From assembly GCF_007859865.1 (NCBI RefSeq), contig NZ_SJPI01000001.1, forward strand, positions 1,550,001 to 1,614,000: DNA of 64,000 nt, written 5' to 3'. Under the pieces are notes generated by a model, which searched no databases, had not been told where the DNA came from, and saw only the letters and a program-made list of their open reading frames with translations. This DNA is from Rubripirellula amarantea (lineage in GTDB: Bacteria; Planctomycetota; Planctomycetia; Pirellulales; Pirellulaceae). The first letter of the stretch is position 1. Every line of letters begins with the position of its first letter. The position numbers were made by a program, and so were the translations under genes. Shown piece by piece: positions 30,332 to 41,265 of the stretch.

Positions 30332-31888
30332 CTATTTGAGGTCACTCGCTGATTGTACTTCGTTTCCTGGAGAATCGTTAGAAATTGCGTCGGCGATTCG
30401 CGTGGACTTTGGCTGAGATTCGTCGTCTGCGACCTCCTTGGCGGCCTTGGCAGATCGCTCAATCAGACGCATCGAGTCGGCCAATTGCAGGTCTGAGCCC
30501 GCAAATCGCTTCATGTTTTCCTCTTCCAGGGTGAATGTCGCCAACATTCGCCGCCCGGCATCATCTGAAAAGTGCATCAAGACCCACTGAATCGGAACAC
30601 CCTCGACGGACCCGGTAGCCGACACGCGAAGGACCCGTAGATCAGTGGCCGAGACGCGTTCCTCAGCCTCGACGATCTCCACCAGTTGGTCGCCAAGAGT
30701 CCGTTTGACGTCCTCTGCAAAGGCCTCTAGCGTCCATTGCTTGCCCGCCTCTAAGGAGGGAAGAGGTCGGAAATCGCACTGAGCCACACTGCGGTCATCA
30801 CGGGTCATCCGCATCATCGCCGCGCCCGGTACATCCGTCATCATTCGCCACTGGCGATTCATCAAGGTAGCAAAGCCGATGTAGTCGCTCTGCAAATCAA
30901 CGAACATTCGGTCTGCGGGGATGTCGCCCATCACGTCGACGTCCTCAAGATCTTGGCTAAGTCCCATTGACATCGTTGTCGGTTTACGCAACAAGCGGAT
31001 GGTGGCGGCGACGTCAAAGCCGGGTTCGGCAATCCCGATGTCGCGCGTTTCATGTAGCGCCATCGCAAGCCATGTGCAGGTGCCCAATTGACGATCAAAC
31101 GTCAGCTTGCCGACCGCGCGAACCACGGTGGGAACACCATCCACACTGCCATCAATTTGGCCTTTGAATTGAATCTTCGCTTCACTCTCATCCAACGAAA
31201 CCACTTCGGCTTCGATGTCACTAACATCCGCCGACGTCAAATTCAGCACCGAGGCGAGCGATTCGCGATCAGGACGATATTTCGAACCGATGGTGACCTT
31301 CTCGCTCGGCAACAGGCTATCCAGCCCGACGCTTGAGGCTGGTAATCGCAACAGGTCTAGTTCGTCGCGAGTGAAATAGTCGTCGACCGAATAAATAACC
31401 TCAGGCATCGTTTCGCGACGAACGATCGCCTGCCGAACCGATTCCCGCAACTCGGATTTAAACGTCGTCTTGTTTAACGAGCTTTCGACCGACGCCTTGT
31501 GGTAATAACGCTCGGCACAGGTAACGTAGTCACCAGCGGAATACTTGCTGCCTTGATCATCCGCAAAACGAAAACGTTCTTCGTAGTCGAAGGTCGCGTT
31601 GCTCGTGATGGGCAACTTCGCGCTAATTTTACGCGACACCAGCGGATTGCTTGCGATGTCGACGTTGCCTTTCACGTCCAGCTCAACGCGTACGCGAAAC
31701 AACTGGTGCTTTGGATTGGGCTTTAGCTCGACCCCATCGCGAGTGTCAGCCGTTGCTTCTTGCGCGATGATTCCTGCACTCGCGATCACAGCGGCGATCA
31801 AGAATTGACGGCGGTCTGCTTTTGGGGTCTTGGCAGCAAGCGTTTTGGTGCGGGTGGTCGTGTGGTTAGACGGTTTCCGTGCAGACAT
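30332..31888 (-). CDS. Secreted protein of unknown function with a Tat-like signal
   Basis: This 518-residue protein is not assigned to a family. The N-terminus has a basic region with ADRRQFLIAAVIASAGIIA, a twin-arginine pattern without a strict SRRxFLK match, then a probable cleavage site near AQEATA. The mature protein is rich in beta strands and acidic residues, with an internal segment VRVSATGSVEGVPIQWVLM. A single Cys-containing segment, VTCAERYYHK, lies near residue 120. It precedes the 29264 gene by 39 bases on the same strand, so the two may work together in the envelope. A 7-bp inverted repeat lies 43 bases upstream of its start. Confidence 0.6.
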   Translation of the reverse strand: MSARKPSNHTTTRTKTLAAKTPKADRRQFLIAAVIASAGIIAQEATADTRDGVELKPNPKHQLFRVRVELDVKGNVDIASNPLVSRKISAKLPITSNATFDYEERFRFADDQGSKYSAGDYVTCAERYYHKASVESSLNKTTFKSELRESVRQAIVRRETMPEVIYSVDDYFTRDELDLLRLPASSVGLDSLLPSEKVTIGSKYRPDRESLASVLNLTSADVSDIEAEVVSLDESEAKIQFKGQIDGSVDGVPTVVRAVGKLTFDRQLGTCTWLAMALHETRDIGIAEPGFDVAATIRLLRKPTTMSMGLSQDLEDVDVMGDIPADRMFVDLQSDYIGFATLMNRQWRMMTDVPGAAMMRMTRDDRSVAQCDFRPLPSLEAGKQWTLEAFAEDVKRTLGDQLVEIVEAEERVSATDLRVLRVSATGSVEGVPIQWVLMHFSDDAGRRMLATFTLEEENMKRFAGSDLQLADSMRLIERSAKAAKEVADDESQPKSTRIADAISNDSPGNEVQSASDLK

Positions 31889-31930
31889 TTTGAATCCGAA
31901 TCCTGTGGCGAATCATCAGGTGAAAAAGCA

Positions 31931-31953
31931 TGGACCCTAAAGCCGTGGGTCCA
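31931..31953. promoter_or_regulatory. 7-bp inverted repeat upstream of the Tat-like secreted protein gene
   Basis: TGGACCC and GGGTCCA face each other across a 9-base loop. Read on the minus strand, the hairpin lies 43-65 bases before the gene start, so it would fall in its promoter or 5' untranslated region. Confidence 0.4.
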
Positions 31954-32061
31954 CCTTCGTCTTTGATCGACTCCTACACCCGATCGGATTCAGCGTAAAT
32001 TCGTCAGAATTCCTACGATCGGAGACTGCACCGTAGTCGTGAAACAAGCTGCCTGTGAAAC

Positions 32062-32077
32062 TGGCACTACGCTAGCT
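32062..32077 (+). promoter_or_regulatory. Possible sigma-54 promoter (-24/-12)
   Basis: TGGCAC-N5-TAGCT matches the sigma-54 consensus TGGCAC-N5-TTGCW except for one base, with the GG and GC dinucleotides at the required 10-base spacing. It points toward the sigma factor gene but lies about 630 bases upstream of its start. A chance match is quite possible. Confidence 0.25.
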
Positions 32078-32195
32078 ATGTGTGCCTTGGACAATGGCAA
32101 GCGTTCTCAGGACGCGACGGTATAACCTTCAAAGTCAGGAAGGATTTACAAGTGTCTCACCGGCACAGGCTAAAGCCGAGGGAAGATTGAAAACC

Positions 32196-32225
32196 TTTGC
32201 GAAGCAGTAACTTGTTGTTCGCAAA
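32196..32225. promoter_or_regulatory. 8-bp inverted repeat in the sigma factor leader
   Basis: TTTGCGAA at 32196-32203 and TTCGCAAA at 32218-32225 are perfect inverted copies separated by 14 bases. This could form a hairpin in a long leader RNA or be a protein-binding site. Confidence 0.4.
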
Positions 32226-32539
32226 CGAGTTAGCGATTTGGCGGATTAGATTCACCGAAAAATGAATGGTTTTGGTCCGGAATTTCCTCTAGTCGTCACT
32301 GGTCAGTTGGGAATTCCCAACGTTCGCATCCTATTTCACATGATGGCAAACTGGGGCGCAACTTCGATGAAGATTGATTGTCCCAGTTCAAATGATAAAA
32401 AACTGCGAACTTCGGTAAAATTTAGCTGGTCAGAAGGATGTTCACGCGGATGTTTTACGCGTAGTACACAATGGAAGTGCAGGCAAGGAGTTCGGCAGGA
32501 CCAATGTGTAGATAACCACGGCAAGTTGAACAGGGAATC

Positions 32540-32564
32540 AAGTGTGACCAATCTTGTCACACTT
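32540..32564. promoter_or_regulatory. 9-bp inverted repeat, operator-like, upstream of the sigma factor gene
   Basis: AAGTGTGAC-N7-GTCACACTT is a perfect 9-bp inverted repeat with a 7-base spacer, centred about 160 bases upstream of the ATG. The half-site spacing is about one and a half helical turns, as for dimeric HTH regulators; TGTGA/TCACA half-sites also resemble CRP/FNR-type sites. It may be an operator, possibly autoregulatory. Confidence 0.5.
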
Positions 32565-32695
32565 CCCTTCGATACTTTCCGTGTCCCACCAAGGTCGCTT
32601 ACGGAATGGGCGACAACCGGGAAATTAATTCGGTACGAGAGTTGTGCGATCCGCCGGGGCCGCAGGGACAATAAAACGACTACGAGTACCAACAC

Positions 32696-32701
32696 AGGGA
32701 G
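32696..32701 (+). promoter_or_regulatory. Ribosome binding site fixing the sigma factor start
   Basis: AGGGAG lies nine bases before ATG 32711, one of the better Shine-Dalgarno matches in the window. It supports ATG 32711 over the in-frame GTG at 32708. Confidence 0.65.
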
Positions 32702-32710
32702 TAACTGGTG

Positions 32711-34384
32711 ATGCACGAAGATTATCGTAACGGACAACTGAAGGAACTTCGCGATCAACTCACACGCTTTGCCCCCAAGGGCAAGAAGATTGAACAAGCA
32801 GACTTAGCTGAGAATCTCTATCACGAGATCGACACCCATCGGTCCTACGCACTTGATTACGTCTGTTTCCGTGTTACCAACTATCGACGCGAGCAATCGA
32901 GTCGGTCAAACATCGCTGGTGTGGACGTCAAGCATGACCTGCGATTGCTCATTGAAGACCTTAGCGATTCAGCCGATATCGCGATCGAAGAAATTCCAGA
33001 GCAAGTTCATACGATGGAGGATCTAAGCAAGTCCTTCCGTGTATCGACCAAGACGATTTCACGATGGCGTGATGCTGGCTTGGTTTCTCGTCGGTTTCTT
33101 TTCGGTGGTCGCAAGCGAGTGGGTTTCTTGCATTCAAGCGTTGAGCGATTTGCCGCTGAAAACCGCGACAAGATCCGCCGAGGCGAACGCTTCAGCCAGC
33201 TTACCGATGAAGAAAAAGGTGAGATGATTGAACGAGCCCGCCAAATGGTTGAAGGCGGGGCGAGTCTTGCCGAAGTCACCCGTGAACTGGCTGCCCAAAT
33301 GGGACGCAGTCCAGAGACGATTCGTTACACGCTGAAGAACTTTGATTCCGTTCACCAGTCGGTCGCGATCTTCCCTGATCATCGAGGCGCACTTACCGAT
33401 GACGACAAGCGAGCGATCTTCAAGCTGCATACGCATGGACACACGGTTTCGAGCTTGTGCAAACGGTTCAAGCGAACTCGAACAAGCATCCATCGCATCC
33501 TGCTGGATATGCGCATCGAGCAAGTAATGGAATTGCCACTCGATTACATCTACAACGAAGAGTTCGAAGTCGCTGCTCGCAAAGATGAATTTCTTGGCGA
33601 GTTGCCGGAACCGGCTAAGGCCCCTCGGAAAACTCGCACGCCAGCCGGTTTGCCGAGTTACCTCGCTGCCCTCTACGACGTCGCGCTGCTGACTCGTGAA
33701 CAGGAATACCATCTGTTCCGCAAGATGAATTACTTGAAGCATTGTGCTAGCCGACTTCGTGAGCAACTTGATTCGGCCGATGCGGATCGTTCGTCTTTGA
33801 TGAACCAAATTGATGGTTTGTACGAGCAAGCCGTGCTAGTTAAGAACAAGATTGTGCAAAGCAACTTGCGATTGGTGGTTTCGATCGCCAAACGGCACGT
33901 CAAGAGTAGTGACGATTTCTTCGCTCTCATTAGCGATGGCAACATGTCGCTCATCCGGGCGGCTGAGAAGTTTGACTACTCGCGTGGTAACAAGTTCAGT
34001 ACCTATGCTTCATGGGCAATTATGAAGAACTTTGCTCGCACCATTCCCAGCGAGTTCAAGCATCGCGATCGTTTCCGCACCACTACTGAGGAACTCTTTG
34101 TTTCGCGTCAAGACAACCGTTTGGATCCGTACATCGAAGAAACGGTTCAAAAGACTCGTCAACGTGAACTGTCGAAGATCCTCAACCGCTTAGATGATCG
34201 CGAACAAAAGATTATCGTGGCTCGGTTCGGTTTGGGTCGAGATAAGGAACCTTTGACGTTGAAGGAAGTTGGCGAAGAAATGGGTGTCACCAAAGAACGT
34301 ATCCGTCAACTTGAAGCTCGTGCGTTGTCAAAACTTCGTGACGCTGCCGATGAAGCCAAGATCGATGTCGAATTGGGTGCCTAG
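32711..34384 (+). CDS. Sigma-70-family RNA polymerase sigma factor with multiple N-terminal HTH-like modules
   Basis: The protein is about 557 residues. The C-terminal 240 residues carry sigma region 1.2 (LTREQEYHLFRKMN), region 2 (QSNLRLVVSIAKRHV, NKFSTYASWAIMKNFAR) and region 4 (LTLKEVGEEMGVTKERIRQL), with little between 2 and 4. The first ~310 residues are not sigma-like. They include a MerR/excisionase-like HTH (about 102-150, FRVSTKTISRWRDAGL), a second HTH-like stretch (about 185-212, AAQMGRSPETIRYTLKNFD) and a third resolvase-like one (about 228-268, SLCKRFKRTRTSIHRILLD). It probably directs RNA polymerase to a dedicated regulon; the HTH modules could bind DNA or an anti-sigma factor. 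An intrinsic terminator follows. Confidence 0.85.
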   Translation: MHEDYRNGQLKELRDQLTRFAPKGKKIEQADLAENLYHEIDTHRSYALDYVCFRVTNYRREQSSRSNIAGVDVKHDLRLLIEDLSDSADIAIEEIPEQVHTMEDLSKSFRVSTKTISRWRDAGLVSRRFLFGGRKRVGFLHSSVERFAAENRDKIRRGERFSQLTDEEKGEMIERARQMVEGGASLAEVTRELAAQMGRSPETIRYTLKNFDSVHQSVAIFPDHRGALTDDDKRAIFKLHTHGHTVSSLCKRFKRTRTSIHRILLDMRIEQVMELPLDYIYNEEFEVAARKDEFLGELPEPAKAPRKTRTPAGLPSYLAALYDVALLTREQEYHLFRKMNYLKHCASRLREQLDSADADRSSLMNQIDGLYEQAVLVKNKIVQSNLRLVVSIAKRHVKSSDDFFALISDGNMSLIRAAEKFDYSRGNKFSTYASWAIMKNFARTIPSEFKHRDRFRTTTEELFVSRQDNRLDPYIEETVQKTRQRELSKILNRLDDREQKIIVARFGLGRDKEPLTLKEVGEEMGVTKERIRQLEARALSKLRDAADEAKIDVELGA

Positions 34385-36751: not shown

Positions 36752-39700
36752 TTATTCAAGCCGTATCAGTTTGGGGCGGTGGGATTTGGGTCGGGACGTT
36801 GGGTCTTCGACATGACGTTCGAGGTAGCTAATCCACTGGTTGTCTGCTGCAATCTCGATTCTACGTATCGGTGCTTGTTCGTCATGCGTGGGAATGTGAC
36901 CGAGGTACTGCAAGGTCTCTGCATCCCAAAGCGAAAGATGACCGGTGTAGTTTCCCGCAACGAGATATCGACCCGTAGCATCGACCGATAGCGCGGTGAT
37001 AGCGCTGTCTATTCCAACATGCAACGTAGGACGCGGCCAACGATCGCTAGTCATCGTTACTTTTCCAGCTAAATCATGCCGTCGAATCCGCCCATCCCTC
37101 GCACCGGAGTAGACCGAATCGCCGACTGGTTCTTTGATCACAGCGGTTAGCCCACCGATGCCGGAATCAACGGTTTGGCTAATCGCCTTGGATCGAACCC
37201 ATTGCTTCACAAGGTCACCAAGCAAAACGAGGTCTTGGGAATCGGAAAACCACGCTGCATCAACCGAACTTGTCAGTTGATGTTCGGAAACGAGCGATAC
37301 AGAGGGTTGGTTGCCGTTGTTGCCAAGCTCGAGAACAAGCAGTGAGAATCCAGCCACACATATCGCGACCTCCGTTCCTTCGCTATTCATCGTGATGAAG
37401 TCAACAGAATTTCGCGTTGAATTCTCGTCGACGACATGGGGAATGCGGTGGAATATCTTTCGCGAATCAAAGTCTAGGAAATCCACCGAGCCGTTAACTC
37501 GACCGATGACCAACACTCGTCCGTGCGGGTCGAGACATAGTTCCGATACAGTGGATTTTCCGGCGGAAACAATGATTTCGGAATGTCCTGTGAACGCATT
37601 GGACAACCTAACGCTACCGTCGGTGTGACCACTAACGATCGTTTCTTTACCATGACGAACGATCGTTGCCGCTGGCGGAACCGACTGGATCGATCGGTCA
37701 ATAGTCGAGCGATCTAGAACAGTGACTCGCCCATCTTCGCCACCGGAAATGATGCGGCCAAGTGAATCGACCGCGAGTTGATTCACGGGACCTTGATGGA
37801 TAACGCGGCGATCCGAGCAAGTCGGTTCCGTTGGCGGCACATTTTGGCTAGCCGCCAGGATGTCGACCATGTCGTAACAAATGACGTCACCCGCTGCGCT
37901 ACCGATGAACAACTGGGAATTGTCTTTTGAAAAAACGACGGAATCAGCATACGAACTCGATGAATCCAGGAGAATCGACCAGATGACTTCGCGACGATGC
38001 TGCGATTCGGGATCGAATGATCCTGGAAACTCATGCGGACTGCCGGCCGATAAATCGGCAACCACCACGCGACCACCATCCGAATAGGAAACGGTTACCG
38101 CCACATAGCGTTGATCATGAGAAACCGAAATGCGGTGAATGTTGTAGCACATGTCCGTCAATTTCATGGCGCGATTTTGAATTTTCAGTTCGCGCAGAAC
38201 TTCATGGGTAGCCGAATCGAACTGCAAGAATAGATCGGCCTCGTGGATGAATGTGATCGTCGATCCATCAACCGAGGTGTGGAGCTCTCGGTGACGTCGA
38301 TGCGAGGGAAAGACTTTCTTGTAAGACTGGTCGGCCAATGATATTAGGCTGACCGGGCTATACCGACAGCCGATTGCCAACTGGTCGGGATCCGCCAAAA
38401 ACGTCAGCGACTCAATCGTGGTGGGAAACCCCCAACGAGTGAAGATTGGTTTGTCATCATTGTTTTCAAAGACGTGAACTTCGTTGGCAGCGAAAACACT
38501 ACGAGTGCCCGGTTGATCGCATAAGCCGACCGCAATTCGTTCAGCATTCTCGCTGACCGCCAAGGCGCAAATATTCTTGCCCTCGGGCATGACCAGTTCG
38601 CGAACTACTTTGCCGCTTTGGTCATCGACCATACGTAAGGTTCCGTCGACGTATCCGATGCAGGTTTGACCTTTGCTGTTAACCGGAGCAATTTCAGCAA
38701 CCGGTGCGGGGCCCTCGGGCCACTGAGTCGTTCCTTCGCCAACGAGATTGCCAAGCATGGCGACGGCAAAATCGTTGTCGGCGTCGGAGTCCACATACTC
38801 TTTGATACGATTGACGGTAGCGGCGGCATCGGGTGCATCGCCACGACTTAGCGAGGCAAGTGCGAGCTTGATATCTGAAAGCATCGCAATTCGTTTCGCT
38901 TTCGCCCGGCTTTCAAGAGCCAACTCGCGCTGTCGACGTTCACCATCCAAAGATTCTTCGGCCAAAGCTTCGGCATCCAACGCACGCGAAACAGCGACCT
39001 GAAGCACGTGCTGTTGTTCTCTTAGCGCACGATTGTGTGACATCGAAATCACTGCAGTGGATGAGATCGCTATCAGCATCAAGGTCAGTAAGGCGGACTC
39101 AACGGGATGTCCACCAACGAAGGTCAAGGACCGTTCAATAATCCCGCGTGGCCTTGCTTTCACTTCAAGGCCCTGTTGAAATCGCCGCAAGTCATCAATC
39201 AGATGGGAAACGGATGGATAGCGTTGATCAGGTTCGAGCTCGAGACATCGTAGGCAAATAGCTTCAGCGTCGAGAGGAACCGACGCCTTGACGCTTCGCA
39301 ATTTTGCTGGTGGACCAGTACAGACGGCTTCCACCATCTCGATGCCGGACTTTTCGGCATGAGGAAGACGACCGGTGAGCAAGCGATAAAACAGCACGCC
39401 CAACGCGTATTGATCACAGGCTTCGTTGTGGTCCAACTGCGAATGGAGAAACTGCTCGGGTGCCATGTACTGGAACGTACCCACCAAGCGCCTAGCCGTC
39501 TGTTCGTCGATCGTCTGACTGAGATCGCGAACCAAACCGAAATCGGTCAATCTAGGTTCAAACGGCAACTTGGAATCGTTCGTGGTCATAGCCAGGATAA
39601 TGTTGGCCGGTTTGATATCGCGATGCACAAGTGACCGACCATGAGCATGCTCGATCGCACTTGCCAAACGCACCATGATCTCGACGGAATCAGCTACCGA

Positions 39701-40240
39701 AAGACGGTCAGCATTGTCCCGAAGCCACGACGCCAAGGTCGGGCCATCGCAGAACTCGGCAACCAAATACAACCTTCCATCGATGTCTAAGACTTCGTAG
39801 ATAGGTACTAAGTTAGGATGGCTCAATCTGGCGACCGCGCGAGCTTCACGCAACCGTTGTTCATCGGGTAGATTCGGCGACGAATTCCTACGCAGTGCTT
39901 TGATCGCAACATCACGCTGCAGCACTTCATCGAAACCTCGATAAACCGTTGCGAAGCCACCGCTGCCTAAAATTCCCCGGATTGCGAATCGCTCGATTTG
40001 CTCGGGCATGGCACCATCGGCAGGATCCTTTGCGTCGCAGGAAATGCTTACGGTGGCGTCATCGAGACTACGCTCTTTAAAAAGAGCATGCAGCAATTTG
40101 ATTGTCTCTACTAACTTTGGGTCGAGCGAATTCGCATTGCTGGGACCATCCTGTTCGGACGCCAGGTGATCATCATAGGCAGTCGCTTTCTCAATCAACC
40201 GCCGGTATGAAGTATTGGATTGAGTCGTTCGGAAACTCAT
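36752..40240 (-). CDS. Transmembrane Ser/Thr protein kinase with C-terminal WD40-like repeats
   Basis: This 1,162-residue protein has an N-terminal Hanks-type kinase domain (about 86-355): the Gly loop GSGGFATVY, K114 (VAIKAL), HRDIKPAN (206-213), D233FG and APEQF. One membrane helix follows (about 380-400), then a short coiled-coil-like Glu/Arg-rich stretch (about 405-450). The remaining ~650 residues are WD40/beta-propeller-like repeats (VISGHTDGSVRLSN, ISGGEDGRVTVLD, VYSGARDGRIRRHD). The kinase is cytoplasmic and the propeller probably extracytoplasmic. Its start overlaps the stop of the ECF sigma gene in ATGA, a strong sign that the two form one signalling unit. Confidence 0.92.
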   Translation of the reverse strand: MSFRTTQSNTSYRRLIEKATAYDDHLASEQDGPSNANSLDPKLVETIKLLHALFKERSLDDATVSISCDAKDPADGAMPEQIERFAIRGILGSGGFATVYRGFDEVLQRDVAIKALRRNSSPNLPDEQRLREARAVARLSHPNLVPIYEVLDIDGRLYLVAEFCDGPTLASWLRDNADRLSVADSVEIMVRLASAIEHAHGRSLVHRDIKPANIILAMTTNDSKLPFEPRLTDFGLVRDLSQTIDEQTARRLVGTFQYMAPEQFLHSQLDHNEACDQYALGVLFYRLLTGRLPHAEKSGIEMVEAVCTGPPAKLRSVKASVPLDAEAICLRCLELEPDQRYPSVSHLIDDLRRFQQGLEVKARPRGIIERSLTFVGGHPVESALLTLMLIAISSTAVISMSHNRALREQQHVLQVAVSRALDAEALAEESLDGERRQRELALESRAKAKRIAMLSDIKLALASLSRGDAPDAAATVNRIKEYVDSDADNDFAVAMLGNLVGEGTTQWPEGPAPVAEIAPVNSKGQTCIGYVDGTLRMVDDQSGKVVRELVMPEGKNICALAVSENAERIAVGLCDQPGTRSVFAANEVHVFENNDDKPIFTRWGFPTTIESLTFLADPDQLAIGCRYSPVSLISLADQSYKKVFPSHRRHRELHTSVDGSTITFIHEADLFLQFDSATHEVLRELKIQNRAMKLTDMCYNIHRISVSHDQRYVAVTVSYSDGGRVVVADLSAGSPHEFPGSFDPESQHRREVIWSILLDSSSSYADSVVFSKDNSQLFIGSAAGDVICYDMVDILAASQNVPPTEPTCSDRRVIHQGPVNQLAVDSLGRIISGGEDGRVTVLDRSTIDRSIQSVPPAATIVRHGKETIVSGHTDGSVRLSNAFTGHSEIIVSAGKSTVSELCLDPHGRVLVIGRVNGSVDFLDFDSRKIFHRIPHVVDENSTRNSVDFITMNSEGTEVAICVAGFSLLVLELGNNGNQPSVSLVSEHQLTSSVDAAWFSDSQDLVLLGDLVKQWVRSKAISQTVDSGIGGLTAVIKEPVGDSVYSGARDGRIRRHDLAGKVTMTSDRWPRPTLHVGIDSAITALSVDATGRYLVAGNYTGHLSLWDAETLQYLGHIPTHDEQAPIRRIEIAADNQWISYLERHVEDPTSRPKSHRPKLIRLE

Positions 40241-40851
40241 GGGCGATCAGAATTCAATTGAGTACTGATCCGGGTAATCGCATGCATCCAGCGGCGACGG
40301 CATGTCGTCGTTGAGATCTCTAGTTCTGCGGCGATCTGTTCGAACGTCATGTTTTTGAGGTAACGCAACTCGACGATCTGACGTAGTTGTTCAGGCAAAC
40401 CGCCTAATTCTGCAAGCATTTGATGTACCTGTTCTTGAGCTTCAATTTGCTCGCTCGGTGCAATTCCATTCGTAGCACCAGAGGTCGGTAACGGGTAGGC
40501 CTTGCCTTCGTGGTCGTCAAGAGAAACCATGCTACGACGATGTCGCCGAATGCTGTCGACAACCTTTCGTTCGGCAATTCGCATGACCCAGCTACGGAAC
40601 TCTGCTTGGGTGTTGCCACGAAACTGGCTTCGTTTAGCTTGAACTAGGCACAACACACTTTGCACCACGTCGGAAACGCCCAGATGACGGCGGATGGATC
40701 TGGGCAATCGGTTGTCCACGATCTTCATAACGAATTGACCACACTGTTCCCAACAAAAATCCTCGGTGGAGTATTCGCCATCAGCAAAGAATGGCATCGA
40801 GGATTCGCTGGCTGTTTTGGATGGCTCGGTGGGGTCATTGGAGTGAGTGTT
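40237..40851 (-). CDS. ECF-type RNA polymerase sigma factor
   Basis: The protein is about 204 residues and shows sigma region 2 (DVVQSVLCLVQAKRSQFRG, FRSWVMRIAERKVVDSIRRH) and region 4 (LPEQLRQIVELRYLKNMTFE, then IAAELEISTTTCRRRW). There is no region 3 and no C-terminal extension. Planctomycete ECF sigma factors of this sort are known to be linked to Ser/Thr kinases. Translation is coupled to the kinase by ATGA. The start is uncertain: GTG 40851 has a weak purine-rich RBS (AGAAAG), ATG 40797 is the first ATG, and a TTG at 40929 is unlikely. Confidence 0.85.
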   Translation of the reverse strand, partial: NTHSNDPTEPSKTASESSMPFFADGEYSTEDFCWEQCGQFVMKIVDNRLPRSIRRHLGVSDVVQSVLCLVQAKRSQFRGNTQAEFRSWVMRIAERKVVDSIRRHRRSMVSLDDHEGKAYPLPTSGATNGIAPSEQIEAQEQVHQMLAELGGLPEQLRQIVELRYLKNMTFEQIAAELEISTTTCRRRWMHAITRISTQLNSDRP

Positions 40852-41265
40852 CACGAGAATCTTTCTACCGTGCCTCGAAGTGCCGTGCTTCAGCGGACCA
40901 CGCCCCTGAAAACTCGAATGAGTCGTCAATGGCCGACGTTCAATGATCTCATCATCGGAATGATCTTACTTACAATCAAACTTTCAACGGTCTTCTAGGC
41001 AACATAGTGCTCGAGCCATCAAAAACATTGTCGAATTTTCGATAGATTATTGGCGAATCGCCCATCGGCATCCGTCTCTCTATCTAAGCGACATTGTTTT
41101 TTCGCAAGCCATCATTTTGGGGGATGGACTGCATCTTGAATGGTGAGTGCATTTCCCAAGTGCTTCCTTGCCGGTTAAAGTCGCTAAGTCACGGCTGGGC
41201 TTGGAACGCAACTTTAGCAGCTTTGAACGTGATTGATGATCGATGCTCGTAGAAGGTGATTGGAA
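40852..41265. other. Divergent intergenic region
   Basis: About 410 bases separate the ECF sigma gene (-) from the first DUF1559 gene (+). I see no gene, no strong hairpin and no clear promoter. The only definite element is AGAAGG at 41251-41256, a good RBS nine bases before ATG 41266. Confidence 0.5.

Follow-up and report, generated by a model that had tools for sequence, protein, structure and literature searches.

The gene at 32711..34384 on the plus strand encodes a sigma-70 factor in which regions 1.2, 2 and 4 are present, sigma-3 is absent, and an extension of approximately 276 residues carrying helix-turn-helix (HTH) domains is found at the N-terminus. The window, the whole stretch of 64,000 nucleotides that was analysed, represents C1:1550001-1614000 of the 6.9 Mb genome of Rubripirellula amarantea. 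Considered as a whole, the protein is best explained as an alternative sigma-70 factor with built-in upstream DNA recognition, a reading to which slightly better than even chances are given. Rather than a local fusion, it is a member of an old family that spans nearly the whole class. No description of this combination of sigma and HTH domains was found in the available text of the open-licence literature, including PMC10632474, PMC2754498, PMC8567305, PMC4598750 and PMC7652899. The gene and the domains of its product are as follows, all on the plus strand.

32711..34384, plus strand: whole gene, 557-residue sigma-70 factor with N-terminal HTH domains (open reading frame, Pfam, ortholog starts)
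32711..32995, plus strand: N1, residues 1-95, acidic alpha/beta domain (AlphaFold2 model; pLDDT 88-96 per ten-residue block)
32996..33196, plus strand: HTH1, residues 96-162, winged HTH of the MerR/excisionase/terminase type (Pfam, AlphaFold2, structure comparison, conservation)
33197..33361, plus strand: HTH2, residues 163-217, HTH_28/HTH_38 type (Pfam, AlphaFold2, structure comparison, conservation)
33377..33538, plus strand: HTH3, residues 223-276, homeodomain-like, HTH_23/resolvase type (Pfam, AlphaFold2, structure comparison)
33539..33640, plus strand: residues 277-310, DYIYNEEF-type motif and linker (alignment; likeness to short sigma-3-less paralogs seen by eye)
33641..33835, plus strand: sigma region 1.2 and the following helix, residues 311-375 (alignments)
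33836..34048, plus strand: sigma region 2, residues 376-446 (Pfam, alignments)
34049..34159, plus strand: short linker replacing sigma-3, residues 447-483 (alignment with paralogs)
34160..34354, plus strand: sigma region 4, residues 484-548 (Pfam, alignments)

The start codon is the ATG at 32711, since the orthologs begin at the same residue; a GTG at 32708 lies one codon 5' of it. Pfam identifies both sigma domains (Sigma70_r2, 6e-13; Sigma70_r4, 2e-19), and regions 1.2 (proper, about residues 311-345), 2 and 4 align to solved SigA/HrdB chains. Regions 2 and 4 are separated by about 40 residues, as compared to about 100 in the RpoD-like proteins of the same genome. Therefore sigma-3 is absent, and the description in the earlier note, of regions 1.2, 2 and 4 with almost no region 3, is correct. 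In region 2.3, KFSTYA and a Trp are still present, as is E-R-x-R-Q in sigma-4; region 4.2 reads V-T-K-E-R-I-R-Q, against V-T-R-E-R-V/I-R-Q in 3 of the 4 RpoD-like proteins. The helix that reads the -10 element is WAIMKNFA here and WWIRQAIT in the RpoD-like proteins of the genome. These positions of regions 2.3/2.4 and 4.2 are presumably the ones that contact DNA in E. coli sigma-70. From the residues present, we infer a -35 preference that would be near that of RpoD and a -10 preference that would be altered.

The different -10-reading helix and the missing sigma-3 are also consistent with a non-initiating regulator bound to core polymerase, whose sigma-like domains would recruit RNA polymerase to sites selected by the HTH domains, or pause it. 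However, the key residues of regions 2.3 and 4.2 are retained, and region 2.3-2.4 is near-invariant across the family (0.99 in 57 sequences); this explanation is considered improbable. An initiating, alternative sigma factor remains the preferred reading. A role as the primary sigma factor of the organism is unlikely, since four RpoD-like paralogs with sigma-3 exist in the same genome, together with one RpoS-like protein. In Planctopirus limnophila the housekeeping sigma factor is essential, according to the available part of PMC10632474.

Three HTH-like modules had been proposed in the N-terminal 310 residues by the earlier note, and this is borne out by Pfam, by an AlphaFold2 model of residues 1-302 and by structure comparison. 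The accompanying inventory was incomplete, as the domain at residues 1-95 had been overlooked; no Pfam stretch is found there. Above the Pfam cut-off are HTH_23 (3.5e-8, 33.5 bits against 24.6) and HTH_28 (1.1e-6), while MerR_1 (2e-4) is just over and HTH_38 (1e-5) just under it; HTH_7 matches HTH3 with 20.4 bits, under the cut-off of 23.8. In 23 diverse members of the family, searched at E 0.01, HTH_23 was found in 21, HTH_17 in 20, HTH_28 in 19, MerR_1 in 17 and both sigma domains in all 23. In the model of residues 1-302 (pLDDT 87.6, pTM 0.60), residues 102-160 form a winged HTH and residues 166-214 and 230-273 each a three-helix unit, so that the N-terminal segments are predicted as HTH folds with good confidence. 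HTH1 shows an HTH followed by a beta wing, as in the MerR/excisionase type, and HTH3 matches the HTH_23 profile of the resolvase/transposase type. The structure comparison bears almost entirely on residues 163-276. The full-chain model has a pTM of 0.43; therefore the mutual placement of the domains is not fixed by it.

No known sigma-associated family was matched in the N-terminus by Pfam, either with the query or with the 23 diverse members, which supports the earlier note. It was also considered whether HTH2 and HTH3 represent a displaced or duplicated sigma-3/sigma-4 pair. Structure rows do pair HTH2-HTH3 with sigma-3/sigma-4 of RpoD chains, at an rmsd of about 20, but the profile comparison gave a probability of 1.6 %, and the idea is unsupported.

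The phyletic spread, for which the earlier note had called, proved to be wide. An ortholog exists in 39 of 40 close genomes (the window's own included), two of those being partial; the exception, G015, is 74 % complete and shows paralogs only. With the N-terminus as a single-sequence query, 51 of 294 phylum genomes were matched, once each. A profile built from 16 N-termini matched 209 of 393 phylum genomes of at least 90 % completeness and 293 of 297 class genomes, mostly once per genome in the class, with two or three matches in a minority. The four class genomes without a match (G610, G649, G704, G713) consist of 790 to 1430 contigs. A scan of named genomes yielded at least 588 confirmed relatives; the 80 examined bear planctomycete names (two just 'bacterium'), and the nearest named ones among them are recorded as Rhodopirellula and Rubripirellula. 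RB12251 of Rhodopirellula baltica, which stands in a stress-repressed gene list in the available part of PMC2754498, was tried as an ortholog. It has 567 residues and a pI of 9.4, against 556 residues (569 from the next start codon) and a pI of 8.2 for the R. baltica ortholog in L088, and the link was dropped. No match was found in a plasmid search, and 20 viral-contig stretches with the pattern gave one match, which was weak and confined to HTH1.

Seven of the 293 class genomes, all of genus g258, gave weak profile matches (3e-10 to 6e-4). All 7 orthologs of this genus (L223-L229) consist of HTH3 and the sigma part, with N1, HTH1 and HTH2 missing; they are 43-45 % identical, match from query residue 235-242 onward and lie in open frames of 354-426 codons. 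Therefore N1, HTH1 and HTH2 can be lost. This genus, in which HTH3 alone is kept, constitutes a natural experiment on the role of the other domains.

Whether the N-terminus reads DNA can be approached through conservation and charge. Among 57 close sequences, the HTH1 recognition helix has a mean majority frequency of 0.89 and its wing one of 0.85; HTH2 has 0.80 and HTH3 0.70, compared to 0.89 for the sigma-4 helix. Among 23 more distant sequences the values are 0.71, 0.73, 0.63 and 0.62, with 0.79 for sigma-4. HTH1 is thus the best conserved of the N-terminal domains. HTH1 (net charge +8) and HTH3 (+4) are basic, while HTH2 (-3) and N1 (-5) are acidic. The conservation of HTH1 in close relatives, similar to that of the sigma-4 helix, and its basic charge favour binding of DNA by HTH1 at least. 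Since its helix and wing come close in these relatives to the conservation of the recognition helix of sigma-4, the suggestion of the earlier note that activator and sigma roles are merged in one chain, through upstream binding by the HTH domains, is plausible on sequence grounds. The acidic HTH2 and N1, the less conserved HTH3 and the genus with HTH3 only indicate that not all three HTH domains need read DNA.

Masking of sigma domains and docking of partners are known roles of region 1.1 or of anti-sigma factors, and HTH folds can act as protein-binding units. The N-terminal HTH domains may accordingly be mainly regulatory or protein-binding, masking the sigma domains or docking a partner, with upstream DNA binding of minor importance. 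Such a role would suit the acidic N1 and HTH2, the shorter sigma-3-less paralogs that lack the entire N-terminus, and the result that no DNA target, promoter or operator was found for the sigma factor. The loss of N1, HTH1 and HTH2 in genus g258 slightly strengthens it and weakens the explanation by upstream DNA recognition. Nevertheless, the near sigma-4 level of conservation of the HTH1 helix and wing in close relatives, the strongly basic HTH1, and an N-terminus that matched no sigma-associated family argue against it, and we regard it as unlikely, though deserving of serious weight. Built-in upstream DNA recognition therefore remains the preferred reading.

A shared sigma promoter, GTGTGA-N15-WTTCG, was also considered. 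The expression was found in 14 rows among 137 upstream regions, which represent 11 distinct loci when L024/L079, L027/L080 and L028/L082 are each counted once; 9 of the 11 come from a pair of small clades, and the number is too low to establish such a promoter. In L024, L025, L027, L028 and L043-L047 the motif, possibly a promoter, stands upstream of the sigma gene, near -120 or -170.

The genomic position of the gene was compared in the 84 loci that extend 3 kb or more downstream of it. In 22 of these, the sigma gene is located directly 5' of a tRNA-tuf-secE-nusG-rplKAJL cluster on the same strand, in the order tRNA-Thr, Tyr, Gly, Thr, tuf, tRNA-Trp, secE, nusG, rplK, rplA (and rplJ, rplL where the locus is long enough). 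Linkage was seen in 17 named loci (L101-L103, L105-L107, L109, L110, L126, L128, L129, L131, L137-L139, L141, L146) and in 5 of 20 additional stretches (L204, L207, L209, L213, L221). L110 (G022) belongs to the family of the window, while those five belong to its class and not to its order; the linkage, occurring in two orders, is therefore taken as old in the class. It is absent in 62 of the 84 loci, among them 15 of the additional stretches, of which eight are in the class (L206 from the order of the window) and seven outside it (L214-L220). The window's own genome lacks it as well: a nicotinate phosphoribosyltransferase gene and an isochorismatase-type gene lie downstream instead. Upstream, a divergent gene (window 30332-31888, minus strand) encodes a 518-residue protein with no Pfam match, kept in 58 of 80 loci; its N-terminus looks Tat-like by eye. 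Ahead of the tRNA-Thr of the tuf cluster, a promoter-like stretch, TTGC...TATATT, can be seen by eye in many of L101-L141. It looks RpoD-like and is not assignable to this sigma factor. Elsewhere in the window (36752-40929, minus strand), a Ser/Thr kinase-like gene with WD40-like repeats is seen by eye beside an ECF-type sigma gene.

A conserved 5' leader precedes the gene in Pirellulales, at 32590-32710 of the window and at the same place in most of L068-L147. Its elements in the window are as follows.

32594..32614, plus strand: leader hairpin P1, with GGA in the loop
32646..32668, plus strand: leader hairpin P2 (32646-32663) followed by AGGGA (32664-32668)
32696..32701, plus strand: AGGGAG, likely Shine-Dalgarno sequence, also a GGA motif

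A pattern of GYGN...YYGC followed directly by ANGGA was found in 72 of 78 distinct leaders, when -62 to -30 of the ATG was searched and the copy nearest -44 was taken. P2 is 12 to 20 nt long and lies at -50 to -40 in 69 of the 72. Counted in sequences rather than independent events, pair 4 of P2 is unpaired in 9 and otherwise A-U (37), G-C (19) or G-U (7), and pair 5 is unpaired in 15 and otherwise U-A (25), U-G (19), C-G (12) or G-U (1). When stems were sought without a fixed position, 68 of 79 leaders matched, whereas 50 shuffles gave 5.7 on average and 10 at most; the strict criteria of this search passed over P2 of the window's genome, which has one A-C mismatch. The leaders contain ANGGA 191 times, while 200 shuffles gave 83 (sd 8). 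The stems of P1 are very different between clades yet paired, and 46 of 72 leaders carry GGA in the loop or the closing pair, where 26 lack it. The folding of the window's leader is only slightly above that of shuffles (z -1.07), and RNAalifold on a MAFFT alignment gave two-sided change at 1 of 14 pairs; the case for the leader is therefore carried by comparison across clades. A loose hairpin search of 38 loci matched 11. Eight of these come from the window's order, of which 13 loci were included; the 3 loose matches among 25 loci of other orders (L042, L051, L058) are differently placed and unlike P2, so that P2-ANGGA was not found at its place there. Within the genome, the pattern occurs once without mismatch, at this gene, and once elsewhere with three mismatches. 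A search of window 31880-32900 against Rfam gave no match up to E 5; at gathering score, only tRNAs were matched in the window and in 8 of 80 loci.

The hairpin and ANGGA could also be a DNA operator for the protein's own HTH domains, serving autoregulation rather than acting as an RNA element. The strong conservation of the outer half-sites GYG and YGC, which is partly owed to the search pattern, would fit an operator. The variable hairpin length, the change on both sides of pairs 4 and 5 with pairing mostly kept, and the constant distance to the start codon, within a search that allowed a wider range, do not, and the chance of an operator is judged slim. As an RNA element, the leader resembles those controlled by CsrA/RsmA, such as glgC, in which GGA hairpin loops are combined with a Shine-Dalgarno GGA; CsrA binds GGA at both places, as described in the available part of PMC7652899. 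It differs from glgC-type leaders in that the conserved P2 carries ANGGA on its 3' side. Seven CsrA-family genes exist in the genome (L178-L184, on C2 and C1). CsrA-type control of the sigma gene leader is putative, though likely.

Bacterial promoter choice is usually divided between the sigma factor and separate activators, and sigma-3 is the reader of the extended -10 element. In the preferred explanation, a branch of alternative sigma-70 factors in planctomycetes would have lost sigma-3. Regions 1.2, 2 and 4 would load the protein onto core RNA polymerase and read a promoter of the -35/-10 type, while the winged HTH and the two further HTH domains would bind DNA upstream of or around -35, adding promoter affinity and selectivity within one chain. 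In two orders, a shared location ties the gene to the tRNA-tuf-nusG-ribosomal-protein cluster. In Pirellulales its translation would be set by the structured leader with ANGGA, probably via a CsrA-type protein, and the output may be a growth- or nutrient-linked expression programme. A broader proposal is that these proteins form a class of one-chain sigma-activators, near class-wide, in which the protein's own upstream DNA readers replace sigma-3; that the gene heads the tuf-nusG-ribosomal-protein cluster in two orders and has a new CsrA-type leader in one; and that it serves growth-linked promoters with an upstream element unknown in other bacteria. Taken together, this proposal is doubtful. 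If the conserved sigma factor has its own upstream DNA readers, sigma and activator roles would be joined in one chain, a new class of planctomycete promoters would exist, and a handle on transcription control in large-genome planctomycetes would be obtained. The seven CsrA-family genes, together with the structured leader, point to a connection of this programme with nutrient state.

By the definitions of sigma-70 Groups 1 to 4 in the available part of PMC4598750, the protein fits none of the groups, since sigma-3 is missing as in Group 4, region 1.2 is present as in Groups 1 and 2, and three HTH domains have been added. With Group 1/2 factors (RpoD, SigA, RpoS) it shares regions 1.2, 2 and 4, and its best sequence matches in the PDB are SigA/HrdB chains; unlike those factors, it has no sigma-3, and the three HTH domains stand where they have region 1.1. 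The RpoD equivalog model TIGR02393 gave 137 bits, well under the cut-off of 354. Group 4 (ECF) factors likewise have sigma-2 and sigma-4 without sigma-3, whereas region 1.2 is present here by alignment. Sigma70_r4 scores 69 bits and the ECF-type Sigma70_r4_2 only 21.5, below its cut-off of 25.7; the NCBIfam sigma70-ECF model is passed (107 against 42.9 bits), but is also passed by the RpoD-like proteins of the genome. MzaA, the sigma factor of the MZA anti-phage system, is the top NCBIfam match by E-value, over the sigma parts only; its model NF041931 gave 144 bits against a cut-off of 800, while the genome's four RpoD-like proteins reach 273-344 on it.

A close resemblance is seen to short sigma-3-less planctomycete sigma factors, which were found in 15 fetched loci (L187-L201) and in the same genome (L002, 360 residues). 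They also have regions 1.2, 2 and 4 without sigma-3, and a similar [FY]-[IM]-x-x-x-x-F motif is seen by eye ahead of region 1.2. Identity over the sigma part is 35-43 % in 15 of the 16 and 32 % in L198. They differ in having 308-397 residues and no three-HTH N-terminus. A 42-row tree, which has several long branches and an arbitrary root, sets apart the family with HTH domains, the short sigma factors and the rows of RpoD/RpoS, with support of 76/72, 97/86 and 100/99, respectively. Therefore the loss of sigma-3 is common to a wider planctomycete set, and it is the HTH N-terminus that marks this family.
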